In this document: positions 9,811 to 62,306 of the stretch, piece by piece
How positions within the stretch are numbered: position 1 is the stretch's first letter
How the letters are laid out: every line of letters starts with the position of its first letter
From: Spirosoma sp. SC4-14
Lineage (GTDB): Bacteria; Bacteroidota; Bacteroidia; Cytophagales; Spirosomataceae
DNA length: 64,000 nucleotides
Direction: 5' to 3'
NCBI RefSeq assembly: GCF_037201965.1
Contig: NZ_CP147518.1
Location: forward strand, 371,001 to 435,000
Translations under genes and position numbers: made by a program
Notes under the pieces: model-generated
What the model was told of the DNA's origin: nothing
What the model saw: the letters and a program-made list of their open reading frames with translations, nothing else
The model's database searches: none

Positions 9811-9881
9811 GTCTTTTTCTGACAGGATTAACAGGGTTTACAGTACTATCCAGTAAACCCTGTTAATCCTGTCAGAAAGAC
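9811..9881. terminator. Long palindrome, bidirectional terminator
   Basis: The arms at 9811-9841 and 9853-9881 are perfect complements except for two extra T in the left arm, leaving an 11-nt loop. The core words GGATTAACAGGGTTTAC / GTAAACCCTGTTAATCC fill almost the whole gap between the convergent AlbA_2 and bioA genes. The ends carry T-rich and A-rich runs. Confidence 0.85.
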
Positions 9882-14708: not shown

Positions 14709-14777
14709 TTTTGTGCGAACCGGTGCCACGGCTCTTTGATTGTGCTTACCTAAACCGTGGCACCGGTTCGCACAAAA
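14709..14777. repeat. Perfect 23-bp inverted repeat after ybeY
   Basis: The arms 14709-14731 and 14755-14777 are exact reverse complements with a 23-nt loop. The word GTGCGAACCGGTGCCACGG forms most of the arm. The left arm begins with TTTT and the right arm ends with AAAA. It ends 20 bp before the ATG of the deacetylase gene, so it can be the ybeY terminator or a structure in the next gene's leader. Confidence 0.8.
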
Positions 14778-17714: not shown

Positions 17715-19448
17715 ATGAATCGTTCGAATCAACAATCGTCTGTTCCACCCGGAAAAAAGTTTGATGCCATTGTTGTTGGCTCAGGAATCAGCGGGGGTTG
17801 GTCAGCTAAAGAACTTAGTGAAAGAGGGTTAAACGTGTTAATGCTGGAACGTGGCCGCATGATCGAGCACGTTACGGACTATCACACGGCAACCATGAAT
17901 CCCTGGGATTTTCCCCATCATAACTTACGGGTATCGACGGATGTCCTGAAACGCTATCCAGTACAGAACCGCACTGGCTTTACCATTACAGAAGCAACGC
18001 ACCAGCAGTTTGTCAATGATCTGGATAATCCATACGTTGAAGAAAAACCATTCGACTGGATTCGGGGCTATCACGTTGGTGGACGTTCGCTGATGTGGGG
18101 CCGCTATTCGTTTCGTTTTTCGGATCTCGATTTCGAAGCCAATGCCCGGGAAGGTATTGCTACCGACTGGCCCATTCGCTACAAAGACATTGCGCCGTGG
18201 TACGATCATGTTGAGAAATTTGCGGGTATTGCCGGAAATCGTGACGGGTTGCCGCACCTGCCCGACGGCCAGTTTCAACCCGCCATGCCCGACAATTGCG
18301 TTGAGCAGCATTTTCGGCAATCCATAAACGACACTTTTCCTGATCGCAAAGTGATTTCGGCGCGGGCCGCTCACCTGACCGCACCTACGCAGCAGCAACT
18401 GAGTCTGGGGCGGGCCAAATGCCAGTACCGGAATATGTGTATGCGCGGTTGTCCCTACGGCGCGTATTTCAGTACACAATCGGCTACATTGCCTGCCGCC
18501 CGCCGTACGAAGCGATTAACCGTTCGGCCGCACTCTATTGTCAATTCAATTATCTATGATGAGAAGAAAGGACTGGCAACCGGTGTTAGGGTCATTGACG
18601 AACAAACGCATGAATGGCACGAATTTTACGCCAGCGTCATTTTCCTGAATGCATCGGCTTTAGGGTCTACCTACATTCTGATGAACTCCAAATCCAAGCG
18701 GTTCCCCAACGGTATGGACGACAGCGGACAGCTAGGTCGGAATGTAATGGATCATCACTTTCATGTGGGCGCTTCGGCCGATTACAATCACGATCTGGAC
18801 AAAATCTACTTCGGTCGGCATCCGGCGGGGCTATATATTCCACGTTTTCGAAACCTGCCGGGGCAGCAGTCGCAGCCCTACAAGCGTGGCTACGGCTTTG
18901 AGGTATATACGGGACGCGAAAACTGGGAGCATGCGCTTGGTCTGGATGGTTTTGGGGCCGATCTGAAAGAGAAAGCTACGCAGTTCGGTATCTGGAAAAT
19001 CACGCTGGATGCGTTCGGCGAATGTATGCCCTACGAAGACAACCGCGTTTACCTGACCGACGATGTGAAGGATAAATGGGGACAGCCGGTACTGAAGATG
19101 GATGTGCATTATCGCGAAAACGAAACCCTCATGCGTAAAGATGCACGGGAGCAGGCCGTACAGATGCTCGAAAAAGCAGGCTTTTCGAATATTAATGGCT
19201 TCGACAGTCAGGCGCATCCGGGCTTAAGCATCCACGAAATGGGTACGGCCCGAATGGGAACATCGCCGAAAAACTCTGTTTTCAATAAATATAATCAGCA
19301 CCATAGCGTCAAAAATGTCTTTAATACCGATGGCGCCTGTATGACCTCGTCGCCCTGCCAGAATCCCTCGCTGACCTATATGGCTCTGTCGGCACGCGCA
19401 GCCGATTATGCCGTGAAAGCGCTGAAACGGGGCGATATACCGCGCTAG
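17715..19448 (+). CDS. GMC-family oxidoreductase
   Basis: A 577-residue flavoprotein. The FAD-binding motif is IVVGSGISGGWSAKELSERG (19-38), followed by the GMC signature region YHVGGRSLMWGRYSFRFS, a Cys-rich stretch CQYRNMCMRGCPYG (about 235-248) and the C-terminal catalytic parts SIHEMGTARMG and SSPCQNPSLTYMALS. This form is the membrane-associated gluconate/sorbitol-dehydrogenase-like subgroup common in Bacteroidota. The small subunit-3 partner that often precedes it is absent. No signal peptide is evident. It probably oxidises a sugar or polyol; electron acceptor unknown. Confidence 0.85.
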   Translation: MNRSNQQSSVPPGKKFDAIVVGSGISGGWSAKELSERGLNVLMLERGRMIEHVTDYHTATMNPWDFPHHNLRVSTDVLKRYPVQNRTGFTITEATHQQFVNDLDNPYVEEKPFDWIRGYHVGGRSLMWGRYSFRFSDLDFEANAREGIATDWPIRYKDIAPWYDHVEKFAGIAGNRDGLPHLPDGQFQPAMPDNCVEQHFRQSINDTFPDRKVISARAAHLTAPTQQQLSLGRAKCQYRNMCMRGCPYGAYFSTQSATLPAARRTKRLTVRPHSIVNSIIYDEKKGLATGVRVIDEQTHEWHEFYASVIFLNASALGSTYILMNSKSKRFPNGMDDSGQLGRNVMDHHFHVGASADYNHDLDKIYFGRHPAGLYIPRFRNLPGQQSQPYKRGYGFEVYTGRENWEHALGLDGFGADLKEKATQFGIWKITLDAFGECMPYEDNRVYLTDDVKDKWGQPVLKMDVHYRENETLMRKDAREQAVQMLEKAGFSNINGFDSQAHPGLSIHEMGTARMGTSPKNSVFNKYNQHHSVKNVFNTDGACMTSSPCQNPSLTYMALSARAADYAVKALKRGDIPR

Positions 19449-19507: not shown

Positions 19508-20650
19508 ATGCATAACCATATCGCCTTTTTGGACGAATGGGGTAATAATGGCCTTGATTTTACCAAAAAACAGGTATCCACCCACTTTATAGTTGTTACT
19601 CTTGTACTTCCTAAGGATAAGAAAGATGAGGCTGAGCGCATTATAGAAGCTGTTCGAAAGCAGTTTTTCCAAACCGGGCCCATTAAGTCATCGAAAGCTG
19701 AGGATGACGCGAAGCGACGACGGGCCATCCTTTCGGCTTTAGTAGAAGCGCCGTTTCAGATTTTCGCGTTGGTGGTTGATAAACGACAACTAACCAGTGA
19801 GGGACTCCACTACAAAGGCTCATTCTATAAATTTCTGCATGGACTGGCCGACCGTGAGTTGTATCGTACATTTCCCAATCTGGAATTAGTGGCCGATATG
19901 CACGGAAGCGAAACGTTTATGGATGGTTTCGTGAAGTATGTACAGGCTAACCACATTCCCAATCTGTTTAATCAGGCAAGTTTTGGTTTCGTTAATGACC
20001 ACGGGAGCGTATTGGTACAAGCCGCCGATTTTATCGCTGGAACCCTGGCGCGTTGTTATGACGAAACAGTTATATCGGATCAGCGACAAAGTTTCATTGA
20101 ATTACTACGCCCCAAACTGCTGACCTTAAAGTTCTGGCCTGATGTTTTTGCACCCTCGCTGGTGAAAGCTACGCTCAATCAGACTCAGTACAATCCTGTG
20201 CTGGCCGATTTAAGTGTGAATCTGGCGCAAGATTTTGTTCATCGCAAGCTTAGCAGTCGGTCGCCACAAGATGTAGATCAGCATACTTGTCTGAGTTATC
20301 TGCTTTTCCATTTTCGCCACATTGATCCCACGCGCTATATATCAAGTCGTGAGTTGATTCGGCATATTGAGAGTCGACGTAATGCAACAGTTAGCCTGCA
20401 TTATTTTCAGACTAAAGTAATTGCGCCGTTGCGCGATGCCGGCGTGTTGATTGCCAGCAGCACAAAAGGCTATAAACTTCCGGCATCGGAGCGTGATCTC
20501 TACGATTTTGTTAACCATAGCAACACGATTATCCAGCCCTTATTATCGCGTATCAACAAATGCCGTGATCAAATCCGACTGGCTACAGATGGAGCCATCG
20601 ACATTCTCGAACGCACTGAATATGATAGTTTAAGAAGAATGATCGACTAA
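19508..20650 (+). CDS. DUF3800 protein with a winged-helix-like C-terminal part
   Basis: A 380-residue protein. The N-terminal 250 residues match DUF3800, a predicted RNase H-like fold. The family's first motif (usually DESG) appears as FLDEWGNNG (7-15), a middle acidic strand as ELVADMHG and the last motif as GSVLVQAADFIAGTLAR (about 160-176). The C-terminal 110 residues (SSRELIRHIESRR, then APLRDAGVLIASSTKGYKLP) look like a winged helix. DUF3800 proteins are often found near mobile or defence genes; no activity is established to my knowledge. Its stop codon overlaps that of the convergent ATPase gene (CTAA, 20647-20650). Confidence 0.75.
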   Translation: MHNHIAFLDEWGNNGLDFTKKQVSTHFIVVTLVLPKDKKDEAERIIEAVRKQFFQTGPIKSSKAEDDAKRRRAILSALVEAPFQIFALVVDKRQLTSEGLHYKGSFYKFLHGLADRELYRTFPNLELVADMHGSETFMDGFVKYVQANHIPNLFNQASFGFVNDHGSVLVQAADFIAGTLARCYDETVISDQRQSFIELLRPKLLTLKFWPDVFAPSLVKATLNQTQYNPVLADLSVNLAQDFVHRKLSSRSPQDVDQHTCLSYLLFHFRHIDPTRYISSRELIRHIESRRNATVSLHYFQTKVIAPLRDAGVLIASSTKGYKLPASERDLYDFVNHSNTIIQPLLSRINKCRDQIRLATDGAIDILERTEYDSLRRMID

Positions 20651-21792
20651 GATTGAAGCAACTGAGCAATAAAATCCAGATAATTGTCTGGATTAACAAC
20701 CGAAAGCGTTGCTTCTGGATAGGCATTTTGAAACGCTTTTGGGAAACGAACCCGGTTGGTATGCCACTTCATTTCGAAGCCGTTTAATTGACCGTTCGCT
20801 TCTTCCAGCCAGTCGAGTTCCTGTTGATCATACGTTCGCCAGAAATAAACATTGGCCTGACTGTTTAGGTATGCATTACGCTTTAGCCGTTCAGCAACCA
20901 GATAGTTTTTCCATAATGCCCCTGCATCCTGTCGTTGCGATAGTTGGGCGAAGTTGTTAATCAGTGCGTTGCGAATACCATTATCAAAAAAATACCACTT
21001 CGAGCTTTTTGTTACCTCTTTGCGCAGGTTATTACTATAGCCCCCTAGTCGGAACAGAACAAAGATTTTAGTAAATAAGTCCAGATAGCGGAAAACCGTA
21101 TTGCGGTCAAGCTGTAGCTGACGGCTTAACTCATCATACGAAACTTCGTTACCAACCTGAAAGGCAACTAATTGTAATAAATGCAGCATTTTCTGAGCAT
21201 TTCGCACTTGCTCGAACAGTAGTATGTCTTTGAGCAAATAGGACGACACTATGCTCTTTAGATAGTCGATACGATCAGAAGGCCTATCCATGAGTACAAC
21301 ATCTGGATAGCTCCCGAATACCAAACGATCTTCAAGATGCTGACGGGTTTGTAAATATGTTTCGGTGCTGCTGAGTTCAAGTTGGGCCAGTGGGTATAAT
21401 GTATAGGTTAGCTGACGCCCAACTAGTGGTTCTCCGGCACGGTTTGTTAAATCGAAAGCCGACGAGCCTGTTGCCAGAATCGTCAGGTTCGGAAAGGAGT
21501 CGATCAGTAACTTTAATGCTTTGCCCACCTCAGGAATTACCTGGGCTTCATCTATGAGCAGGAGTTGCGTATTACCAAGCCACCGCTGATAATTAGTTAC
21601 CCGTCGTTCGTTTAGTAGATCGGCAGTGTTAAGATCGTCACCATTCAGAACAAGCTTATGGCCATCAAACGAATCAGCTAGTTGATTCATCAGAACCGTT
21701 TTCCCAACACGTCTGGCTCCTGTTAGTCAGATGACTTTGTTAGCTCCTAATTTTGCCCCAAGCGTATGAAATAACCTTCGTTCAATTAGCAT
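20647..21792 (-). pseudogene. AAA_14/DUF4143 ATPase broken by one in-frame TGA
   Basis: Read from ATG 21792, the frame gives 21 residues ending GAKLGANKVI, then TGA at 21727-21729, then LTGARRVGKTVLMNQLADSF and a full-length family protein to 20647. The Walker A (GARRVGKT) lies directly after the stop; Walker B is LLLIDEAQVIP and the sensor is LATGSSAFDL. A DUF4143 domain fills the C-terminal half. Restart at the next ATG (21690) would lose Walker A, so the truncated product should not bind ATP. The stop is followed by C, a leaky context, so readthrough cannot be excluded. Members of this family occur in large copy number and are often decaying. Confidence 0.85.
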
Positions 21793-21832
21793 TTTGTTAA
21801 TTGGGTGAGTTTATTCAACGAATTAACGTTTT

Positions 21833-24800
21833 TTACCCTAACATCACCAATTCTTTTAATTCCGCATCGCTCAGGTCGCCAAGCCAGGTTTCGCCGGTCT
21901 GAACGCTCAGGTCGGCCAATTCACGTTTGGTGCGAATCATGGCGTCGATTTTTTCTTCGAGCGTGCCCTGGTTCATAAGCCGGTATACCAGTACGTTTTT
22001 GGTTTGCCCGATCCGAAACGCCCGATCAGTAGCCTGCGATTCTACGGCCGGATTCCACCACAAGTCATAGTGAATAACGTGATTGGCCTGGGTCAGATTT
22101 AAGCCTGTTCCACCCGCTTTGAGCGACAGGATAAACGTATGATCGCTCCGGTTTCGCTGAAACTGCTCCACCATTTCGTCGCGGTCGGCGCGGGATGTTC
22201 CACCGTGCAGAAACAACGGCTGCATCCCAAACGACTGTTGGATAAATTGTTGTAGCAGCTCACCCATCTCGCGATACTGGGTAAAAATCAACACCTTTTC
22301 GTGACTGGCATAAATGTTTTCAAGCAAATTGAGCAGGAGTGTGGCCTTACCAGAGAGAACAGGCGTATTGTTGCCCCGTTTGAGGTATTGATAGGGATGG
22401 TTACCGATTTGCTTAAGCGCCGTCATCAGTTTTAACACTAGCCCCCGACGGGCAATGCCATCTTTCTCCTGAATGGCTCGCAGGCTCTCCTGAACTACAC
22501 TTTCATACAGAGCGGCCTGTTCGGTAGTGAGCGAGCAGAACTGATTGTTTTCAATCTTATCGGGCAGGTCACTGATGATGCTGCGGTCGGTTTTAACCCG
22601 CCGGAGTAGAAAAGGGCTCGTGATCCGCCGAAATAAATCAAGTTTCTGGTGATCGCGTTCCTGCTGAATTGGTTTTCCAAAATCTTCGTTGAACTTACCC
22701 AAACCGCCCAGATAGCCTTTATTCACAAAGTCCATAATACTCCAGAATTCTGATAGTCGGTTTTCGACGGGAGTTCCGCTGAGGGCAATTCGAATTGGTG
22801 CCTTCAGCGCTTTTACTGCCTTGGTTTGCTCGGTATCCGGGTTCTTAATATTTTGAGCTTCGTCGATAATAACGGTTGCCCAGGTTGTCTTTTTCAGAGT
22901 ATCCAGATCCGATCTGACAACACCATAGGTGGTTAGTAACAGATCGTAGTCGTCGGTTTTGGTAGTGGCTAGTTTGCGATTTGTTCCATGATAAACCCGA
23001 ACCATTAGGTCTGGCGCAAAGCGAATAATTTCTTTTTGCCAGTTCGTCAGCAGAGTGGTTGGCAATACGACTAATCCTTTTTGTTTTTTGAACCGACCGT
23101 CCTGTTTGAATTTAAGTAGCAATGATATTACCTGGAGCGTTTTTCCGAGACCCATATCGTCGGCTAGCAGGCTCCCCATACCAAGGGTTGTATTTTTCAG
23201 GAGCCAATCGTATCCTCGTTGTTGGTAGGGCCGAAGTGTGGCATGGAGCGCCTGAGGCAGCGGTTGGGCTTCGCTGTCGGTGAATTGTTTGACCAGTTTC
23301 CGCACCTCGGCCGATAAGCCTAACCGGGCTCCTTTATATTCTTCGGTCAGAGCTGCCTTTAGTAGATCGGTACTGGTCAGTTCGGGTGGGTTTTCGAGCT
23401 GTTTATACAGTTTGGCAAGCTCGGTTGGATCAATCAGCACATACTGATCCTTAATTTTGACCAGGCCACTGGAGCGCCCAACCAGTTTTTGAAACTCGTT
23501 CACACTCACCATCTCGTCGCCAATAGCCACCTGCCAGTCGAAGGTAAGCATATCGTCGATCCGCATAAAGGCATTTTTGTCGGAAACTTTGGCTTTCAGT
23601 CGTCCACCCACCTGTGGCCTTACCCAATGCTGGAGCGACTTTGGCAGCCAGAGAGCAATACCCAGCAATTGCATTCGAGGAAGCGTTTCGAGCAAAACCT
23701 GCACAAACTGATCGGGTGAGTACGATAAGGCATGAGGGCCGTTTAGTTTTGTGAGCTGAGCCAGATCGGGGAAATGCCGCGAGAGCACCAGAAGATCCTG
23801 CAAAACGGCCATTCGTATGCGTTCGTGTTTCTTCTTGGCCAGTAATTCGGGCAGTGGAATTGGCTGATCGAGCGAGTTATTGGTATGGGCCGTTTCGCGG
23901 TCCTGAATCAGAAGGCTTAGTTTAAACTCATCGCCATACTCATTGTCTTCAACTGCAATAATTGGCACAAAGCGTTTGTGCGTCAAAAAGAAATCGTTGA
24001 GCCAGAGTTGAATGGCTACCGGCATTTCTTTGCGGCCAAAGCCTTCGAATCGGAGCGTCTCGACGCCAAAAAACAGCCGGTCGGCATCTTCCAGCGGCCA
24101 GCGTTCCCACAACTCAATGGTCGTTGGCTTAATAACCCGCCGTAAGAAAATTGAACACAGGGTTAAAATTTGCTGATCGTCGGGTAGAGCCAGCCATTCT
24201 TTCTGCCAGCGTACGGTCAAAAGTGTTGGTGGAAGCTGGGTAGCCAGTTGGCTGGTCAGGTGCTTAATGGTTTCATTGAGCATGGCCGGAAGCCATCGAA
24301 CGCGATACTGATCTTCGGTTGGGCCAACGCGCAGGAGTTGAGGCACAACCGCCCCTCGCCGAAGCAGCACCGTCGCAAACTGCTGCGTCAGGTAGAGTGC
24401 CCGTACCGAATCACTCATTTCGTCCCAGTCCGATTCGGTGAGTGTATTGAGCCAGTTGATCAGGTCGCTCATGGTAAACCCAGCTATCGAACGAGGCTCA
24501 CCGTGTTCGCTGAACATGCTGATTTTCTTAACTTTCATCACCTCATCGAGTTGCAGTTCAATGCTGTCGCTTGGGTTGGGATGATGAATTTCGTTCAGGT
24601 CGGGTTTCGCAAGCTGACTTTCAATAAGTGGTTTGCTGAACAGCTTGTAGGCTTTACTGAGCGATTTATGAAAATCGCTTTTGGTAAATGTAACATCGGT
24701 TGATAGGAGCCCTAACAGTTGGTCGGCCAGTGGAGGAATGGTTGAGAAGTCGAGCCCCGCGCGAATTTTGTCATCTGGGCGCCAGTCTTCATCTTCATCG

Positions 24801-25384
24801 GGCAATTCATCGGTACCGAGTTCCCGTAAGGATACGACCGTATCCAGTGTACCAGCAACGGCCTCAGGTTGCCATTTCTGGAGCTCGGTCAGTATGTCAA
24901 GTCCTTTCAGTAGAAAAACCTGAAATGGATTTCGGTCGATCTCATTGGCAACTACATAAACAACGGCGGCAAGGTGCTTGCACGGAATCGCTTCGTCGGG
25001 GCAGGAACAGCCCATAATTAGATCCTGAAACGAACGAGGAAAGAGCTGAATACCCTGTCGGTCGGCAAACTCAGTTAGTTCGGGAGGCAACTGTCTATTC
25101 AGAAGCTGAGCCAGAATAGCCGGATTTTTTTGAATTTCAGATAATAGGCTCCGCTTTTGCTCATCGGTAAACAACTGAACCGTCAGCCTGGTTCGATAGG
25201 GCCGGGGAGCAGATCCTTTAATAGACGCTGAGATCTGATTTTGGGAAATGGTTAAGCCCTGAACAGCTCCTTTGTTGGCATAGGTTTTGCCACGAGGTAA
25301 CCGATTTGCCTTGTCAATGCTTGTCAGGGCATTAAGCCATTGTTGCCCCCACCACGTTTTGCCGTAGGTGATGCGTTCCGCCAT
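21833..25384 (-). CDS. SNF2-family helicase with N-terminal SWIM zinc finger
   Basis: An 1183-residue protein. The SWIM finger is CSCPDEAIPCKHLAA (C126, C128, C135, H137). Residues 150-700 form the long conserved region of bacterial SWIM-SNF2 proteins. The C-terminal 460 residues are the motor: LADDMGLGKTLQVISLLL (motif I), ATVIIDEAQNIKN (motif II, DEAQ), IALSGTPVENRLSEFWSIMD (motif III), LSLKAGGTGLNLTQANHVIH (motif V) and DRAFRIGQTKNV (motif VI). It is a DNA translocase or remodeller of unknown target. Relatives occur both as chromosomal genes and in defence loci. It starts 41 bp beyond the start of the broken ATPase gene on the same strand. Confidence 0.9.
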   Translation of the reverse strand: MAERITYGKTWWGQQWLNALTSIDKANRLPRGKTYANKGAVQGLTISQNQISASIKGSAPRPYRTRLTVQLFTDEQKRSLLSEIQKNPAILAQLLNRQLPPELTEFADRQGIQLFPRSFQDLIMGCSCPDEAIPCKHLAAVVYVVANEIDRNPFQVFLLKGLDILTELQKWQPEAVAGTLDTVVSLRELGTDELPDEDEDWRPDDKIRAGLDFSTIPPLADQLLGLLSTDVTFTKSDFHKSLSKAYKLFSKPLIESQLAKPDLNEIHHPNPSDSIELQLDEVMKVKKISMFSEHGEPRSIAGFTMSDLINWLNTLTESDWDEMSDSVRALYLTQQFATVLLRRGAVVPQLLRVGPTEDQYRVRWLPAMLNETIKHLTSQLATQLPPTLLTVRWQKEWLALPDDQQILTLCSIFLRRVIKPTTIELWERWPLEDADRLFFGVETLRFEGFGRKEMPVAIQLWLNDFFLTHKRFVPIIAVEDNEYGDEFKLSLLIQDRETAHTNNSLDQPIPLPELLAKKKHERIRMAVLQDLLVLSRHFPDLAQLTKLNGPHALSYSPDQFVQVLLETLPRMQLLGIALWLPKSLQHWVRPQVGGRLKAKVSDKNAFMRIDDMLTFDWQVAIGDEMVSVNEFQKLVGRSSGLVKIKDQYVLIDPTELAKLYKQLENPPELTSTDLLKAALTEEYKGARLGLSAEVRKLVKQFTDSEAQPLPQALHATLRPYQQRGYDWLLKNTTLGMGSLLADDMGLGKTLQVISLLLKFKQDGRFKKQKGLVVLPTTLLTNWQKEIIRFAPDLMVRVYHGTNRKLATTKTDDYDLLLTTYGVVRSDLDTLKKTTWATVIIDEAQNIKNPDTEQTKAVKALKAPIRIALSGTPVENRLSEFWSIMDFVNKGYLGGLGKFNEDFGKPIQQERDHQKLDLFRRITSPFLLRRVKTDRSIISDLPDKIENNQFCSLTTEQAALYESVVQESLRAIQEKDGIARRGLVLKLMTALKQIGNHPYQYLKRGNNTPVLSGKATLLLNLLENIYASHEKVLIFTQYREMGELLQQFIQQSFGMQPLFLHGGTSRADRDEMVEQFQRNRSDHTFILSLKAGGTGLNLTQANHVIHYDLWWNPAVESQATDRAFRIGQTKNVLVYRLMNQGTLEEKIDAMIRTKRELADLSVQTGETWLGDLSDAELKELVMLG

Positions 25385-26124
25385 CTATACTGAAACTGAT
25401 TTAAATGTAAAAATAGCTGGTTTGATGCTTTCTGGTCATGCGTTATTCGCAAACCCGCGACCAATGACTACTAGTGAAGCCATGCCCGTATACATAAACG
25501 TAATACGTCAGAAAATAATGCTTTACAACGCAAGCAGTCATATAGCTACCTGTACGCTAACGGTTATTTTAAGAAAGTGTTTTATGGAGCCTTACTGTTT
25601 TGACTGACCACATAAACGAACTATCCTAACTTTCTTACAGCGTACTATGGTCTTATACAGATGATCATGTTCCAGAAGTTCCAGGGTTGAACAAGCTGGA
25701 TTGGTGAATTTTGGTAAATGGGTTAAATGCAAAATAAAATGATGTATAAATTCGCATAAAGGTCAGGAAAATTTGTCTTGTAGCTGCTAATATTGTAAAC
25801 TTGTTTAACGTATAATCTTGTCGTTGTTAATGGCAACGCTCATTTTTACAGGTAAATGGCTAGCTTGAAGACGGTGCAGGTTGCCTGCCTGAAGCAGAGT
25901 TAGGAAATTGAGTTGAGCCGGTGGCAGAAGTATACTGATTAGTACTGAATCAACAGACATGAAAGCCCAAACCGAAAAGGCCAATCAGTCCAAAACCTCT
26001 TTTTAAACGATGAAACACAATCAGAAACAGTTCGATTGACAGATGGCTTTAAACAAATAAATGATTTTAATGCTATACGTAATTAACTGTTTTCACTTAA
26101 CTTTTACTTCTTAACCTACTCCCT
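25385..26124. other. 740-bp intergenic region
   Basis: This is the longest gene-free stretch in the window. It separates the divergent SNF2 and TrpD2-like genes. I find no convincing reading frame, RNA gene or long inverted repeat. A 15-codon frame (25959-26006) and a 79-codon frame that begins inside the helicase gene are probably chance. TAAACTTG at 25796 and TAACTTTT near 26095 are imperfect -7 elements for the + strand. Decayed sequence or a long regulatory region are both possible. Confidence 0.5.
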
Positions 26125-27420
26125 ATGTCCGTTATGTCAATGATCAATCTGGATTTAGATGCTCCAGTCGATACACCGCTTGGGCGAGGTATCAAGCATA
26201 TCGGTATTGGAAAGTACGGCAGCAAGCCGCTTCCTGATGATTTACTGGCCGAATGCCGAGCGGCACTGGCCGATCCGGCATCGCATCCACTGCAACGGGG
26301 CGCTTTTCTGGGGGCTTTGCTGGCTAAAGGGCCAACTCCTGCCGAGATGGCTCTGGAAGAAGTAATTGGTAAAGGGGCATTCTCACATCCTACTTTTTTT
26401 ATTAATAAAGTATGCCCCGATTTGCCAGTTGGCATGCATCCCATTGCTACCAAACTGGTTCGGGGGCATAACCTGCAAGTGAGTGAAGCGCATCAGTTGG
26501 GCGACTATCTGTTCGGAGACGATAACTGCGAAACCTTCCGTGGGCTGGCTGCCAGCATTATGCGGGTGCGCCATGAAACCAATGAAGAGTACCTTGGGCT
26601 CATGCGGGCCGCTGAGAGCACTTTTTCGCCGGGGTTTGGGCCAATAAGTTGTGCAGACCGGCCGCTGGTGCAATTGGCCGAACCGTTCGATGGGGTCGAA
26701 AACAGTTATCTGATCACACCACTGCTGGGGCAGTTTTTTCAGAAACGTGGCTACGGAGCCATATCGATGGTGGGTCGATCGGGCGGACCAAAATTTACGC
26801 TTAATGCGCTTGATCTGTGTATGCATCTGGGATGCCAGTTTCTGCAAAGTAATCACGAACTCGATACGCCACTCGACCGCTATGGATGGGTACTGGATCA
26901 GAAAGCCTTGTCGCCAGCGCTGAATCGCTGGGTCGATCGCCGACGGACGATTATAAAACGGCCCTTTCTGGCAACTCTCGAAAAAGTACTGAATCCCTGC
27001 CATGCACAAATACTGGTAACGTCGGTATTTCATATCACCTATCAGATGAAGATGGCCGAACTGGCGCTTATGGCTGGTTTCGATGCGGCTATTGTAATGA
27101 AACGTGGTCTGGAAGGCAGTCTGGCACCATCGACCAGCCGGGCAAGTGGTATCTTATGTGCGGTTAGAACGCACCGTGGTCATCTCTTTTATCAGCATTT
27201 CGAAGCCGACTCGCCTACCTTTGCTTCGTTCCGAACCGAGAGCGATCAGCAATACGACCATCCGCTGGCTACCGATAATGCCCGCCTTGTTCAGCAATTT
27301 ATGGCTGAAGGGTTCAGCGCCGATGCCGATTTCGATAATCGGGTGCGGTTGGCTCAGGCCATTTATGGCCGTGGGCTCGACTGGATTGAAGGACAATTGC
27401 GCCCACAGCCGGTTGATTAG
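26125..27420 (+). CDS. TrpD2-like protein, glycosyltransferase family 3 fold
   Basis: A 431-residue protein with the anthranilate phosphoribosyltransferase fold: a helical N-terminal domain (residues 10-100) and an alpha/beta domain. However, the TrpD phosphoribosyl-diphosphate loop (GTGGD) is not present; the segment reads VGRSGGPKFTLNALD. This fits the TrpD2/YbiB branch, whose E. coli member binds nucleic acid and is SOS-linked, rather than tryptophan synthesis. It is longer than YbiB (about 320). Its neighbour is a helicase, as YbiB neighbours DinG. There are three possible ATG starts within six codons. Confidence 0.65.
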   Translation: MSVMSMINLDLDAPVDTPLGRGIKHIGIGKYGSKPLPDDLLAECRAALADPASHPLQRGAFLGALLAKGPTPAEMALEEVIGKGAFSHPTFFINKVCPDLPVGMHPIATKLVRGHNLQVSEAHQLGDYLFGDDNCETFRGLAASIMRVRHETNEEYLGLMRAAESTFSPGFGPISCADRPLVQLAEPFDGVENSYLITPLLGQFFQKRGYGAISMVGRSGGPKFTLNALDLCMHLGCQFLQSNHELDTPLDRYGWVLDQKALSPALNRWVDRRRTIIKRPFLATLEKVLNPCHAQILVTSVFHITYQMKMAELALMAGFDAAIVMKRGLEGSLAPSTSRASGILCAVRTHRGHLFYQHFEADSPTFASFRTESDQQYDHPLATDNARLVQQFMAEGFSADADFDNRVRLAQAIYGRGLDWIEGQLRPQPVD

Positions 27421-27439
27421 CCCGAAAGCTGTACCTTTG
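27413..27439 (+). promoter_or_regulatory. Promoter of lhgO
   Basis: TTG at 27413-27415 and TACCTTTG at 27432-27439 are 16 nt apart. The -7 element covers the GTG at 27439 that opens the longest frame, so the gene must start later, at ATG 27463. Confidence 0.6.
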
Positions 27440-27462
27440 TGGCGGCATTTAGCCATATTGGC

Positions 27463-28659
27463 ATGATAGACGTCGTAATTATTGGTGGTGGCATTGTTGG
27501 ACTGGCCACCGCATTGCAATTAAAGCAGCAACGATCCTCTTTAAAAGTTGTTCTGATCGAAAAAGAACCTGCCGTGGCCCGGCATCAGACAGGCCACAAT
27601 AGCGGTGTTATTCACTCCGGATTGTATTATAAACCGGGAAGCCTCAAAGCAACCAACTGTATTCGAGGCTATCATATGCTGATCGATTTCTGCAATGCCG
27701 AAGGTATTCCCTACGACCTGTGCGGAAAAATTGTAGTAGCAACCAGGCCAGAAGAAATCCCACAGCTAAATACCCTCTATGAGCGTGGGCAACTTAATGG
27801 GCTCGCTGGGCTGAAAAAGCTGTCGGTTGCCGAAATGCGCGAAATTGAGCCGCATGTCAATGGTGTTGCGGGAATGTTTGTTCCACAAACGGGAATTATC
27901 GACTACAAGCAGGTTTCGGAGAAATATGCTGAGAAATTTCAGCAACTGGGTGGCGAAATCCGACTGGCTGAACGTGTTGAGCAAGTTACACCAGGCACTA
28001 GTCTGAGTATTGTCGTTACCAATAAGGGGAGCTATGAAACGAAACTGGTGGTGAACTGTGCCGGTCTGTATTCCGATAAAATTGCTCAGTTAACCCAGCG
28101 CGAAGCGGTCGACGTGCGCATTGTACCGTTTCGGGGCGAGTATTACAAAATACGGCCCGAAAAAGAATACCTCGTTAAAAATCTGATCTACCCGGTTCCC
28201 GATCCTAATTTTCCTTTTCTGGGCGTACACTTCACCCGGATGATACATGGAGGTGTTGAAGCGGGGCCTAATGCGGTGTTAGCATTCCAGCGTGAGGGCT
28301 ACACAAAATCAGACATCAATCTAAAAGAACTGTTCGAAACACTGGCATGGCCAGGCTTCCAGAAAGTAGCTGCCAAATACTGGGAGACGGGTCTGGGCGA
28401 AATGTACCGATCATTCTCGAAGTCGGCCTTTACGAAAGCCCTACAGGCCCTGATTCCCGACGTGCAGGAAGCCGACCTGGAACCGGGCGGAGCGGGCGTT
28501 CGGGCGCAGGCTTGCGACCGAACGGGCGGTTTGCTCGACGACTTTGCTATTCTGGAAACCGATAAGGCCATCAACGTTGTCAATGCACCTTCGCCGGCGG
28601 CTACCTCATCGTTATCGATTGGAAAAACCGTTTCCGAAAAGGTGCTGGCCCGGTTTTAA
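27463..28659 (+). CDS. lhgO: L-2-hydroxyglutarate oxidase
   Basis: A 398-residue FAD-dependent oxidase of the DAO family. The FAD motif is VVIIGGGIVGLATALQL (4-20). HQTGHNSGVIHSGLYYKPGS and NCIRGYHMLIDFC are specific for LhgO/L2HGDH, and the C-terminus has GGAGVRAQACDR and VNAPSPAATSSLSIG. It oxidises L-2-hydroxyglutarate to 2-oxoglutarate, passing electrons to oxygen or quinone, a metabolite-repair or lysine-catabolic step. The start at 27463 is set by the promoter just upstream. Confidence 0.92.
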   Translation: MIDVVIIGGGIVGLATALQLKQQRSSLKVVLIEKEPAVARHQTGHNSGVIHSGLYYKPGSLKATNCIRGYHMLIDFCNAEGIPYDLCGKIVVATRPEEIPQLNTLYERGQLNGLAGLKKLSVAEMREIEPHVNGVAGMFVPQTGIIDYKQVSEKYAEKFQQLGGEIRLAERVEQVTPGTSLSIVVTNKGSYETKLVVNCAGLYSDKIAQLTQREAVDVRIVPFRGEYYKIRPEKEYLVKNLIYPVPDPNFPFLGVHFTRMIHGGVEAGPNAVLAFQREGYTKSDINLKELFETLAWPGFQKVAAKYWETGLGEMYRSFSKSAFTKALQALIPDVQEADLEPGGAGVRAQACDRTGGLLDDFAILETDKAINVVNAPSPAATSSLSIGKTVSEKVLARF

Positions 28660-28668
28660 CGATAGGAG

Positions 28669-29070
28669 TTAAAGCGGCTGAATGTGGTCTTTGAACCACG
28701 TTTGCACAGATTCGAGCGAGTGTTTGCCTGATGCCACATCGAGCGTAAACTCGATCAGTAAATCGTCATCGACAGAATCCTTAAATGTGTAGTTGTTTAA
28801 TTGCACGAAAATAATTGCTGCCTGTAGCCCTGTTCGTTTGTTGCCATCCTGAAAGATATGGTTGCACACAATGTTGAACATATACAATCCTGCTTTTTGA
28901 TATAGTTCAGGATATAGGGCCTTGCCAAACATCTTGGCTTCTACAGCTTCCAGTAAGTAATCGAGATTTTTTTCATGAAGGAAATTGTGAGGCAGCACAA
29001 AATTGCCTCCAAAAGCCTTGACCTGATAGTTATTGATGGTAATTATTTCGGCTTTCGTTAGATAGATCAT
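28669..29070 (-). CDS. Doc-family (Fic fold) toxin
   Basis: A 133-residue Doc/Fic protein. The active-site motif HIFQDGNKR lies at residues 71-79 and matches HxFx(D/N)GNKR, the Doc form, in which the kinase-like activity phosphorylates EF-Tu. LPHNFLHEKNLDYLLEAVEA matches the family N-terminus. It starts one base after the antitoxin stop, forming a toxin-antitoxin operon (antitoxin first). Confidence 0.87.
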   Translation of the reverse strand: MIYLTKAEIITINNYQVKAFGGNFVLPHNFLHEKNLDYLLEAVEAKMFGKALYPELYQKAGLYMFNIVCNHIFQDGNKRTGLQAAIIFVQLNNYTFKDSVDDDLLIEFTLDVASGKHSLESVQTWFKDHIQPL

Positions 29071-37764: not shown

Positions 37765-37842
37765 AGTGAATGAGTGAATGAGTGATTGAGTGAAAAAATA
37801 GGCGTCGGCTTATTCACTCAATCACTCATTCACTCATTCACT
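37765..37842. repeat. Perfect 30-bp inverted repeat inside the accB-accC operon
   Basis: The arms 37765-37794 and 37813-37842 match without error around an 18-nt loop. Each arm is itself made of tandem 8-mers GAGTGAAT with one variant, GAGTGATT. It occupies nearly all of the accB-accC gap, ending 10 bp from the accC start. In mRNA it would fold very stably between two genes whose products are needed in fixed ratio. Confidence 0.85.
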
Positions 37843-62236: not shown

Positions 62237-62306
62237 CACCAGTTCATTAAAAGAGAGAGCCAGCTTATCGATCGATAAGCTGGCTCTCTCTTTTAATGAA
62301 CTGGTG
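62237..62306. repeat. 70-bp perfect palindrome, terminator-like
   Basis: Bases 62237-62271 are the exact reverse complement of 62272-62306, with no loop or mismatch. The centre is TTATCGATCGATAA. It starts five bases after the OmpA-like stop. As RNA it would make a very stable stem; as DNA it can form a cruciform. Confidence 0.9.

Follow-up and report, generated by a model that had tools for sequence, protein, structure and literature searches.

Do neighbouring genes that look as though they belong together form one system, or have they come to lie side by side by separate routes? The question is raised by a 64,000-nucleotide stretch of Spirosoma sp. SC4-14 (contig NZ_CP147518.1, positions 371,001 to 435,000; hereafter the window), taken from a genome of two contigs and 8.1 Mb that is rated 100% complete. 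Between metabolic genes lie a DUF3800 gene, a broken gene for an AAA_14/DUF4143 ATPase, a gene for an SNF2 helicase of 1183 residues and a TrpD2-like gene. A sequence-only reading had taken these four open reading frames (ORFs), all of which are confirmed in the ORF table, for one accessory block with a possible role in defence. The stretch is very probably a composite that contains no four-gene system. The helicase and TrpD2-like genes are ordinary, long-established members of the genus, and the DUF3800 gene and the ATPase look like separate later arrivals. The best explanation overall, which is judged likely, is a composite of three histories, one of them that of an ATPase cassette (the PADLOC candidate PDC-S01) landing at the ends of genes.

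The four genes are distributed differently among related genomes. The set searched comprised 59 genomes: the organism's own, 35 other Spirosoma genomes and 23 from beyond the genus (genomes and loci are cited below by G and L numbers). An orthologue of the helicase is present in all 35 of the other Spirosoma genomes at 74-89% identity; in G002, G012 and G033 it is reported in pieces, one of them at 67%. The TrpD2-like gene is found in 34 of the 35. The DUF3800 gene occurs in seven of 58 relatives (one copy is a 38-residue fragment), and in none of them at the window's place. The helicase and the TrpD2-like gene are thus genus core, and the label of accessory block does not hold for them.

A gene-neighbourhood search had been proposed as a check. 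Elsewhere, 27 DUF3800 loci were fetched, six of them twice, leaving 21 distinct ones (a collection scan yielded 18, of which 12 were new and joined nine earlier ones). None of the 21 carries the helicase, the ATPase or the TrpD2-like gene within about 8-9 kb on each side, or less at contig ends. The idea that all four genes make up one defence or nucleic-acid system draws on the matches of the helicase and the ATPase to defence models. It also draws on the genes near DUF3800 in other loci, which include SspB/SspC, a type IIG restriction enzyme, a PRTase of the retron III-A model, a TIR protein and a piece of an Aga nuclease; these ten neighbours were hand-picked as defence-like, without a control, and one (L142) lies 11 kb from DUF3800. 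The helicase matches the ZorD, DpdE and DISARM models because of its SNF2 motor, at scores far under the equivalog cut-offs. The split between core and scattered genes, the lack of co-occurrence in the 21 loci and the broken ATPase all stand against a four-gene system, which is rejected as very improbable. What remains of the suggested link between DUF3800 and defence is annotation and neighbourhood, and the same is true of this ATPase family.

Two relatives, G022 and G029, have the same locus without the DUF3800 and ATPase stretch of 2.4 kb. In both, the stop codons of the GMC oxidoreductase and helicase genes face each other and the window's flanks are present, giving an empty site. The two stop codons lie 2,384 bp apart in the window, compared with 5 bp for G022 and 96 bp for G029. 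Rearrangement had been suspected from the convergent stops of the DUF3800 and ATPase ORFs, which do overlap by four bases, and from the gap of 740 bases between the helicase and the TrpD2-like gene. The empty sites bear this out at the convergent stops. The gap exists, but it is no sign of rearrangement, since across 20 relatives with both genes in one stretch the same interval varies between about 0.4 and 4.8 kb.

The ATPase belongs to a family that is listed as a defence candidate. Its frame matches the Pfam families AAA_14 (PF13173, 58.6 bits) and DUF4143 (PF13635, 135 bits), and it scores 468 bits against PDLC04789, the PADLOC model of PDC-S01, for which six relatives score 228-514 bits. 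DUF4143 is often regarded as nuclease-like, and the AAA_14/DUF4143 proteins of PDC-S01 are, we take it, those of COG1373. One study lists COG1373 among genes common to several genera (PMC10782964). According to a 2026 survey, PDC-S01 is the fourth most common defence across prokaryotes, with counts of 9,986 in archaea and 29,494 in bacteria, and validation is still pending for most such candidates (PMC12988326).

The ATPase also follows the helicase in other species. Among 32 genomes read, window included, six have it there, and the copies of the five relatives (G014, G035, G017, G030 and G009) are at least 68% identical. On a tree of the 32 helicases the six tips are separate and the nearest relative of each is without the ATPase; parsimony on this tree counts six gains versus 16 losses. 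In G014, a segment of about 160 bp is repeated on both sides of 1.76 kb that hold the ATPase and two small ORFs without a Pfam match. The same segment, which starts 79 bp ahead of the helicase stop, extends about 80 bp past it and includes a palindrome, is present as a single copy in G016, G032 and G034.

Alternatively, the ATPase could have stood behind the helicase ancestrally and been lost many times. Its divergence does follow that of the helicase in most pairs: among five of the six helicase-side ATPases the two identities are similar (82/83% and 77/79%, for example), which descent with losses also predicts and which weighs against gain. In addition, sisters of G014 keep the palindrome and a few bases after it without the ATPase, which could be a scar. 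Against this stand the 16 losses required, the ATPases of G014 and G035, which are closer to each other (90%) than their helicases are (85%), and the single copies of the repeated segments, both at the helicase and, in G018, at the gene rnhB. Ancestry followed by loss is therefore an improbable history, and we infer that gain explains the scatter.

Similar arrangements are found at other genes. In G035, set against G025, an oxidoreductase-like gene (so named by eye) has its end repeated around the ATPase. A comparison of G001 with G018 shows an insert of 1323 bp at the 3' end of rnhB (identified by Pfam RNase_HII) that holds only the ATPase and its leader; 39 bp of the rnhB end are repeated in G001 at 97% identity and single in G018. 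When 1.5 kb behind the gene were read, an ATPase was found behind a glutamine-synthetase-like gene (PF00120) in five of 30 loci, with a repeat of the gene end in two, and behind rnhB in two of 30, with such a repeat in one. Pfam detects no integrase or transposase domain in the cassettes examined.

About 85 ATPase copies were tested for flanking repeats and for inverted repeats at the start codon. In a set of 47 distinct ATPase ORFs, drawn from the genus and the order, direct repeats within 1 kb flank eight, compared with none of 159 control ORFs (Fisher p 4e-6); two of the eight (G004, G027) are one site in two close species. A phylum-wide draw of 28 copies, together with two copies from viral contigs, gave repeats in six of 30, with L210 and L211 from one genus. 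The repeats are 27-164 bp long and 75-100% identical. In a scan of 364 ORFs from the window and 40 loci, most of them chosen for the helicase so that the result is not a genome-wide rate, the 3' end of a gene was repeated downstream in six cases and the 5' end upstream in none. Four of the six are helicases, the fifth is the oxidoreductase-like gene of G035, and the sixth belongs to a family with several members in its locus.

Duplicated gene ends are also left by toxin-antitoxin pairs. In G013, a DUF433-DUF5615 pair (PF04255, PF18480) stands behind the helicase and is followed by a 58-bp repeat of the helicase end; a pair of the same clusters in G024 is followed by a repeat of 37 bp. A HicB-like ORF in G026 (recognized by eye, without a Pfam match) and a DUF433-like ORF in G017 are likewise accompanied by a helicase-end repeat. 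Behind rnhB, both G026 and G011 have a two-gene module with a RelE toxin (PF06296), after which the rnhB end is repeated, over 104 bp in the former and 70 bp in the latter. Chromosomal type II toxin-antitoxin modules thus share with PDC-S01 both the gene ends and the duplicated 3' ends. Unlike them, the ATPase usually stands by itself and in many cases has an inverted repeat at the ATG, and no antitoxin partner was seen. Some genomic islands integrate at the 3' ends of genes or tRNAs, and as in those islands the end of the host gene is duplicated and the gene is left whole; the ATPase cassette differs from them in having no integrase and in repeats that vary in length and identity.

Several observations weigh against a cassette that lands at gene ends. 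Most copies have no repeat (39 of 47, and 24 of 30 in the wider set), and the copies and loci are partly related and not independent samples. In L214 the repeat is located at the start of the downstream gene, and in G017 it brackets the DUF433-like gene instead of the ATPase. A DUF433-type pair stands behind the helicase of G003 without any repeat. At the glutamine-synthetase-like gene, G004 and G027 have no gene-end repeat, though a short flanking repeat is present, and the window's own copy has no flanking repeat. With these points included, PDC-S01 is still probably a mobile cassette in Spirosoma. Somewhat more than half of that confidence goes to the ATPase being cargo, and not the mover, of a general insertion route, mainly because toxin-antitoxin pairs are found with a footprint of the same kind.

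A Fic/Doc toxin gene (PF02661, TIGR01550) is also present in the window, at 28669-29070 on the minus strand. It is convergent with the L-2-hydroxyglutarate oxidase gene, 9 bp behind its stop, and a small ORF lies upstream on the same strand. A Doc gene occupies the same place in G004, G005 and G027; the other stretches read showed none there. This is perhaps another gene-end landing site.

The second recurrent feature of the ATPase is an inverted repeat at its start codon. Scanning from -120 to +20 of the start for a perfect stem of at least 14 and a loop of at most 24, such a repeat was found at 22 of 47 ATPase starts and 15 of 159 control genes (p 7e-8, a value that is too small because copies such as L099/L100 and L093/L165 are related). 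With starts set from the position of the Walker A motif and a stem of at least 13, the counts were 20 of 39 ATPases and seven of 86 other ORFs of the same loci. The right end of the ATPase hairpin mostly falls at -6 to +3 from the ATG; the seven control hairpins also lie within 26 bases of the start. In the phylum-wide set the repeat is present at seven of 28 ATPase starts and none of 36 controls. About half or more of the ATPase copies are without it by this test.

In an alignment of 26 leaders, 14 of 15 pairs had changed on both sides, with 93 cells of double change versus 28.7 in shuffled and 14-27 in slid alignments. The leaders were chosen by eye from 41, the 11 from the genus for having a hairpin, and these pairing statistics are inflated accordingly; the counts for 47 and 39 ATPase starts given above involve no such selection. 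In a search that this choice affects less, a covariance model run against 50 further sources with ATPase copies matched the element at E <1e-4 in seven, two of which (L094, L211) repeat loci of the model; it lies at the ATG in L101, L102, L163 and L178 and was also matched in L167. Among eight plasmid copies of the ATPase, it was found at the annotated ATG in Runella slithyformis (E 9e-5), Pseudooceanicola (0.015) and Roseobacter (0.034), and those of Runella rosea, Acinetobacter, Azotobacter, Thermus and Bacteroides gave no convincing match. The inverted repeat therefore recurs in other Bacteroidota and, weakly, on two alphaproteobacterial plasmids. Over 865 kb of other stretches, the covariance model R1 gave one weak hit (E 0.28, L116, not near an ATPase); R1 is narrow, and misses the helicase-type palindromes and the leaders of the rnhB and glutamine-synthetase sites, all of which lie within those 865 kb. 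A gathering-level Rfam search of 20 such loci returned tRNAs only and no family for the inverted repeat.

Other inverted repeats were seen in the same material. In L211 a start-codon hairpin stands on both sides of the ATPase (913-947, and a weaker one at 2494-2545, E 0.013), inside a flanking repeat of 159 bp. The hairpins just behind the helicase in L104-L134 vary in sequence among species, with both arms changing together, and several are perfect and loop-free. The window contains nine long perfect inverted repeats with stems of 14-35, compared with none in three mononucleotide shuffles of the 64 kb. They include 62237-62306, 9816-9878, 14709-14777 and 37765-37842, and one of the nine is a loop-free palindrome of 70 bp between convergent ORFs.

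How the flanking repeats relate to the hairpin bears on its role. Twelve repeat-flanked copies were compared uncut. In five of them (G014, G009, L205, L210, L211) the upstream repeat stops no more than two bases from the ATG's first base, and in the other seven it stops 98-240 bases ahead of the ATG; the downstream repeat starts 10-16 bases past the stop in five (L205, L095, L087, L215, L229). PDC-S01 could be self-moving, with the ATPase recognizing the start-codon hairpin and inserting itself at gene ends. The enrichment of the hairpin at this family, the single-gene insert that includes its hairpin and the five repeats that end at the palindrome are in keeping with this. However, the seven repeats that end farther upstream, the same footprint made by toxin-antitoxin pairs without an ATPase, the lack of a transposase or integrase domain in Pfam searches, and a structure model of the ATPase that is too poor (pLDDT 48) to support a nuclease domain all argue against it, and a self-moving PDC-S01 is considered unlikely.

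The hairpin may instead be only an RNA element that controls translation or transcription, unrelated to movement. Its position at the ATG and the pairing kept through changes on both sides fit such an element, but in five copies the repeat reaches the ATG and so takes in the leader and palindrome. Nearly every pair is also Watson-Crick, with 9 G-U among about 339 paired cells; this counts little, as the alignment is biased by a partial choice of perfect hairpins, which itself removes G-U. A purely regulatory hairpin is a serious possibility, given somewhat less than an even chance.

The window's own ATPase, which had been suspected of being broken, is indeed interrupted. Its frame, read from the ATG at 21792, meets a TGA at 21729-21727, just before GARRVGKT. 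The first start codon past it, at 21690, lies behind the Walker A motif, leaving no intact Walker A in the protein. Judged from its sequence, the gene is a pseudogene; relatives have intact copies. The break is taken as recent because non-synonymous change relative to G014 is low (pN 0.11, pS 0.83). Of the palindrome upstream of the ATG, both arms are complete in G014, G035, G030 and G009, and the window keeps one (21797-21829), identical at 31 of 33 positions when lined up by eye. With no repeat and half a palindrome, the insertion of this copy has to be deduced from its relatives, and we infer that it arrived as theirs did.

The intact DUF3800 gene has a history of its own. It matches its Pfam family at 43.9 bits (the cut-off of 21 is reached), and seven relatives align over most of its length. 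Its divergence from one relative is mostly synonymous (pN 0.19, pS 0.84). The best folds for its structure model (pLDDT 76) are RNases HIII and HII, at Foldseek E values of 0.003-0.017 and probabilities of 0.99-1.00, with no E value of 0.001 or below; the modelled tail, helix-helix-strand-strand, would fit a winged helix. An RNase H fold is reported for a DUF3800 protein beside Cas12a2 (PMC10910872). Among 72,556 plasmid records the gene is present in nine. Rfam found no match at the DUF3800 genes of the window and 14 other loci, where CRISPR arrays were not searched for; over whole DUF3800 loci it gave one chance-level hit and two group II intron hits in L136. The gene is read as a scattered, accessory, nuclease-like gene, and not as a partner of its neighbours in the window.

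Two further observations concern DUF3800 loci. A protein of 192-194 residues with no family assignment is encoded head-to-head with DUF3800 in three Spirosoma loci (L135 8491-9075, L137 10591-11169, L143 11672-12256), and neither Pfam nor PADLOC matches the L135 copy. In G023, the DUF3800 gene (L143 9108-11500) is interrupted by about 1.2 kb that contain two ORFs and may be an insertion element.

The helicase combines SNF2 (227 bits), DUF3670 (98), Helicase_C (85) and SWIM (20.9, with a cut-off of 19.6), and the solved sequence nearest to its motor is 1z63, an SNF2/Rad54-family helicase. Membership in Zorya, DISARM or Dpd was considered and rejected (ZorD 307.8/1500 bits, DrmD 89.2/950 and 68.9/610, DpdE 55.6/500), and the equivalog cut-off of the SCO1167/SCO6262 helicase is not reached either (690/1200). 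The likeness of the other protein to TrpD2/YbiB is weak: its only Pfam match is Glycos_trans_3N at 23.8 bits, under the cut-off of 26, and it reaches 54.2 bits with NF006005 (curated cut-off 185) and E 0.0072 with PDB 7y3p. It would be at best a distant relative of YbiB.

In E. coli, ybiB shares one LexA-regulated operon with the helicase gene dinG (PMC10123104). The window's gene differs in that its helicase neighbour is an SNF2 protein, is divergent, and is not within 1.6 kb in 12 of 31 relatives. Of these 31 Spirosoma loci, read as 19.5-kb stretches, 19 have a TrpD2-like gene that diverges from the helicase at a distance of up to about 1.6 kb, seven of them with a shared further ORF between the two; in one locus the gene lies 4.8 kb away, and in 11 it is outside the stretch. 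Within the 740-bp region, about 40 bp by the helicase start and at most 50 bp by the TrpD2-like start align, in near relatives only. Outside the genus, G040 has both genes, far apart. The features of the locus are collected in Table 1.

Table 1. Genes and other features at the composite locus (window coordinates).
Feature	Position	Strand	Basis
GMC oxidoreductase, left flank; convergent with the helicase in empty-site relatives	17715-19448	+	Pfam; synteny
DUF3800 (RNase H-like) with winged-helix-like C-terminal tail; intact, scattered accessory gene	19508-20650	+	Pfam, structure model, genome searches
AAA_14/DUF4143 ATPase (PDC-S01), pseudogene	20647-21792 (open ORF only 20647-21690)	-	ORFs, Pfam, PADLOC model, relatives
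In-frame TGA directly upstream of Walker A	21727-21729	-	reading of the ATPase frame
Right arm of start-codon palindrome, left arm missing; helicase stop 3 bases off	21797-21829	-	arms aligned by eye
SWIM/DUF3670/SNF2 helicase, 1183 aa, genus core; 3' end a recurrent landing site in relatives	21833-25384	-	Pfam, genome search, synteny
Divergent intergenic region, 740 bp	25385-26124		alignment with relatives
TrpD2/YbiB-like protein, genus core	26125-27420	+	profile and genome search
L-2-hydroxyglutarate oxidase, right flank	27439-28659	+	profile, synteny

The preferred explanation, with PDC-S01 as a movable single-gene cassette that lands at or just behind the 3' ends of genes, suggests the following course of events. 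Imported DNA with a short cassette would join at the end of a host gene and leave a stub of that end on the far side. The host gene would stay whole because a copy of its end is duplicated. The cassette, with the ATPase as protective or addictive cargo, would be kept while it pays or addicts and would then decay. The hairpin may act as a recombination site, as an RNA control element, or in both ways. In the window, a PDC-S01 cassette would have landed behind the helicase, where five other species on separate branches also have one. It would then have decayed through a nonsense codon and the loss of half the palindrome, with the flanking repeat absent. Beside it lies an orphan DUF3800 gene that is still intact; genes of this kind also occur on plasmids and close to defence genes.

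A bolder version is that PDC-S01 represents a new class of minimal mobile element, made of one AAA+/DUF4143 gene with the start-codon hairpin as its own recognition site. Such an element would spread by ATP-dependent cutting at host gene 3' ends, and the host gene would survive through duplication of its end; toxin-antitoxin pairs would share the route. Taken as a whole, this is a speculative proposal and a doubtful one. A literature search, whose coverage excluded most subscription journals, found no description of single-gene PDC-S01 insertion at gene ends, of gene-end repeats or of the start-codon inverted repeat, and a search of PHROGs gave weak matches only.

The locus illustrates that a chance neighbourhood can resemble a system. 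If PDC-S01 genes are mobile cassettes tied to a start-codon hairpin, part of the counts in defence surveys would describe a mobile gene. Gene-end duplications would then provide a simple way to find and date such insertions, along with the toxin-antitoxin pairs that use the same route.

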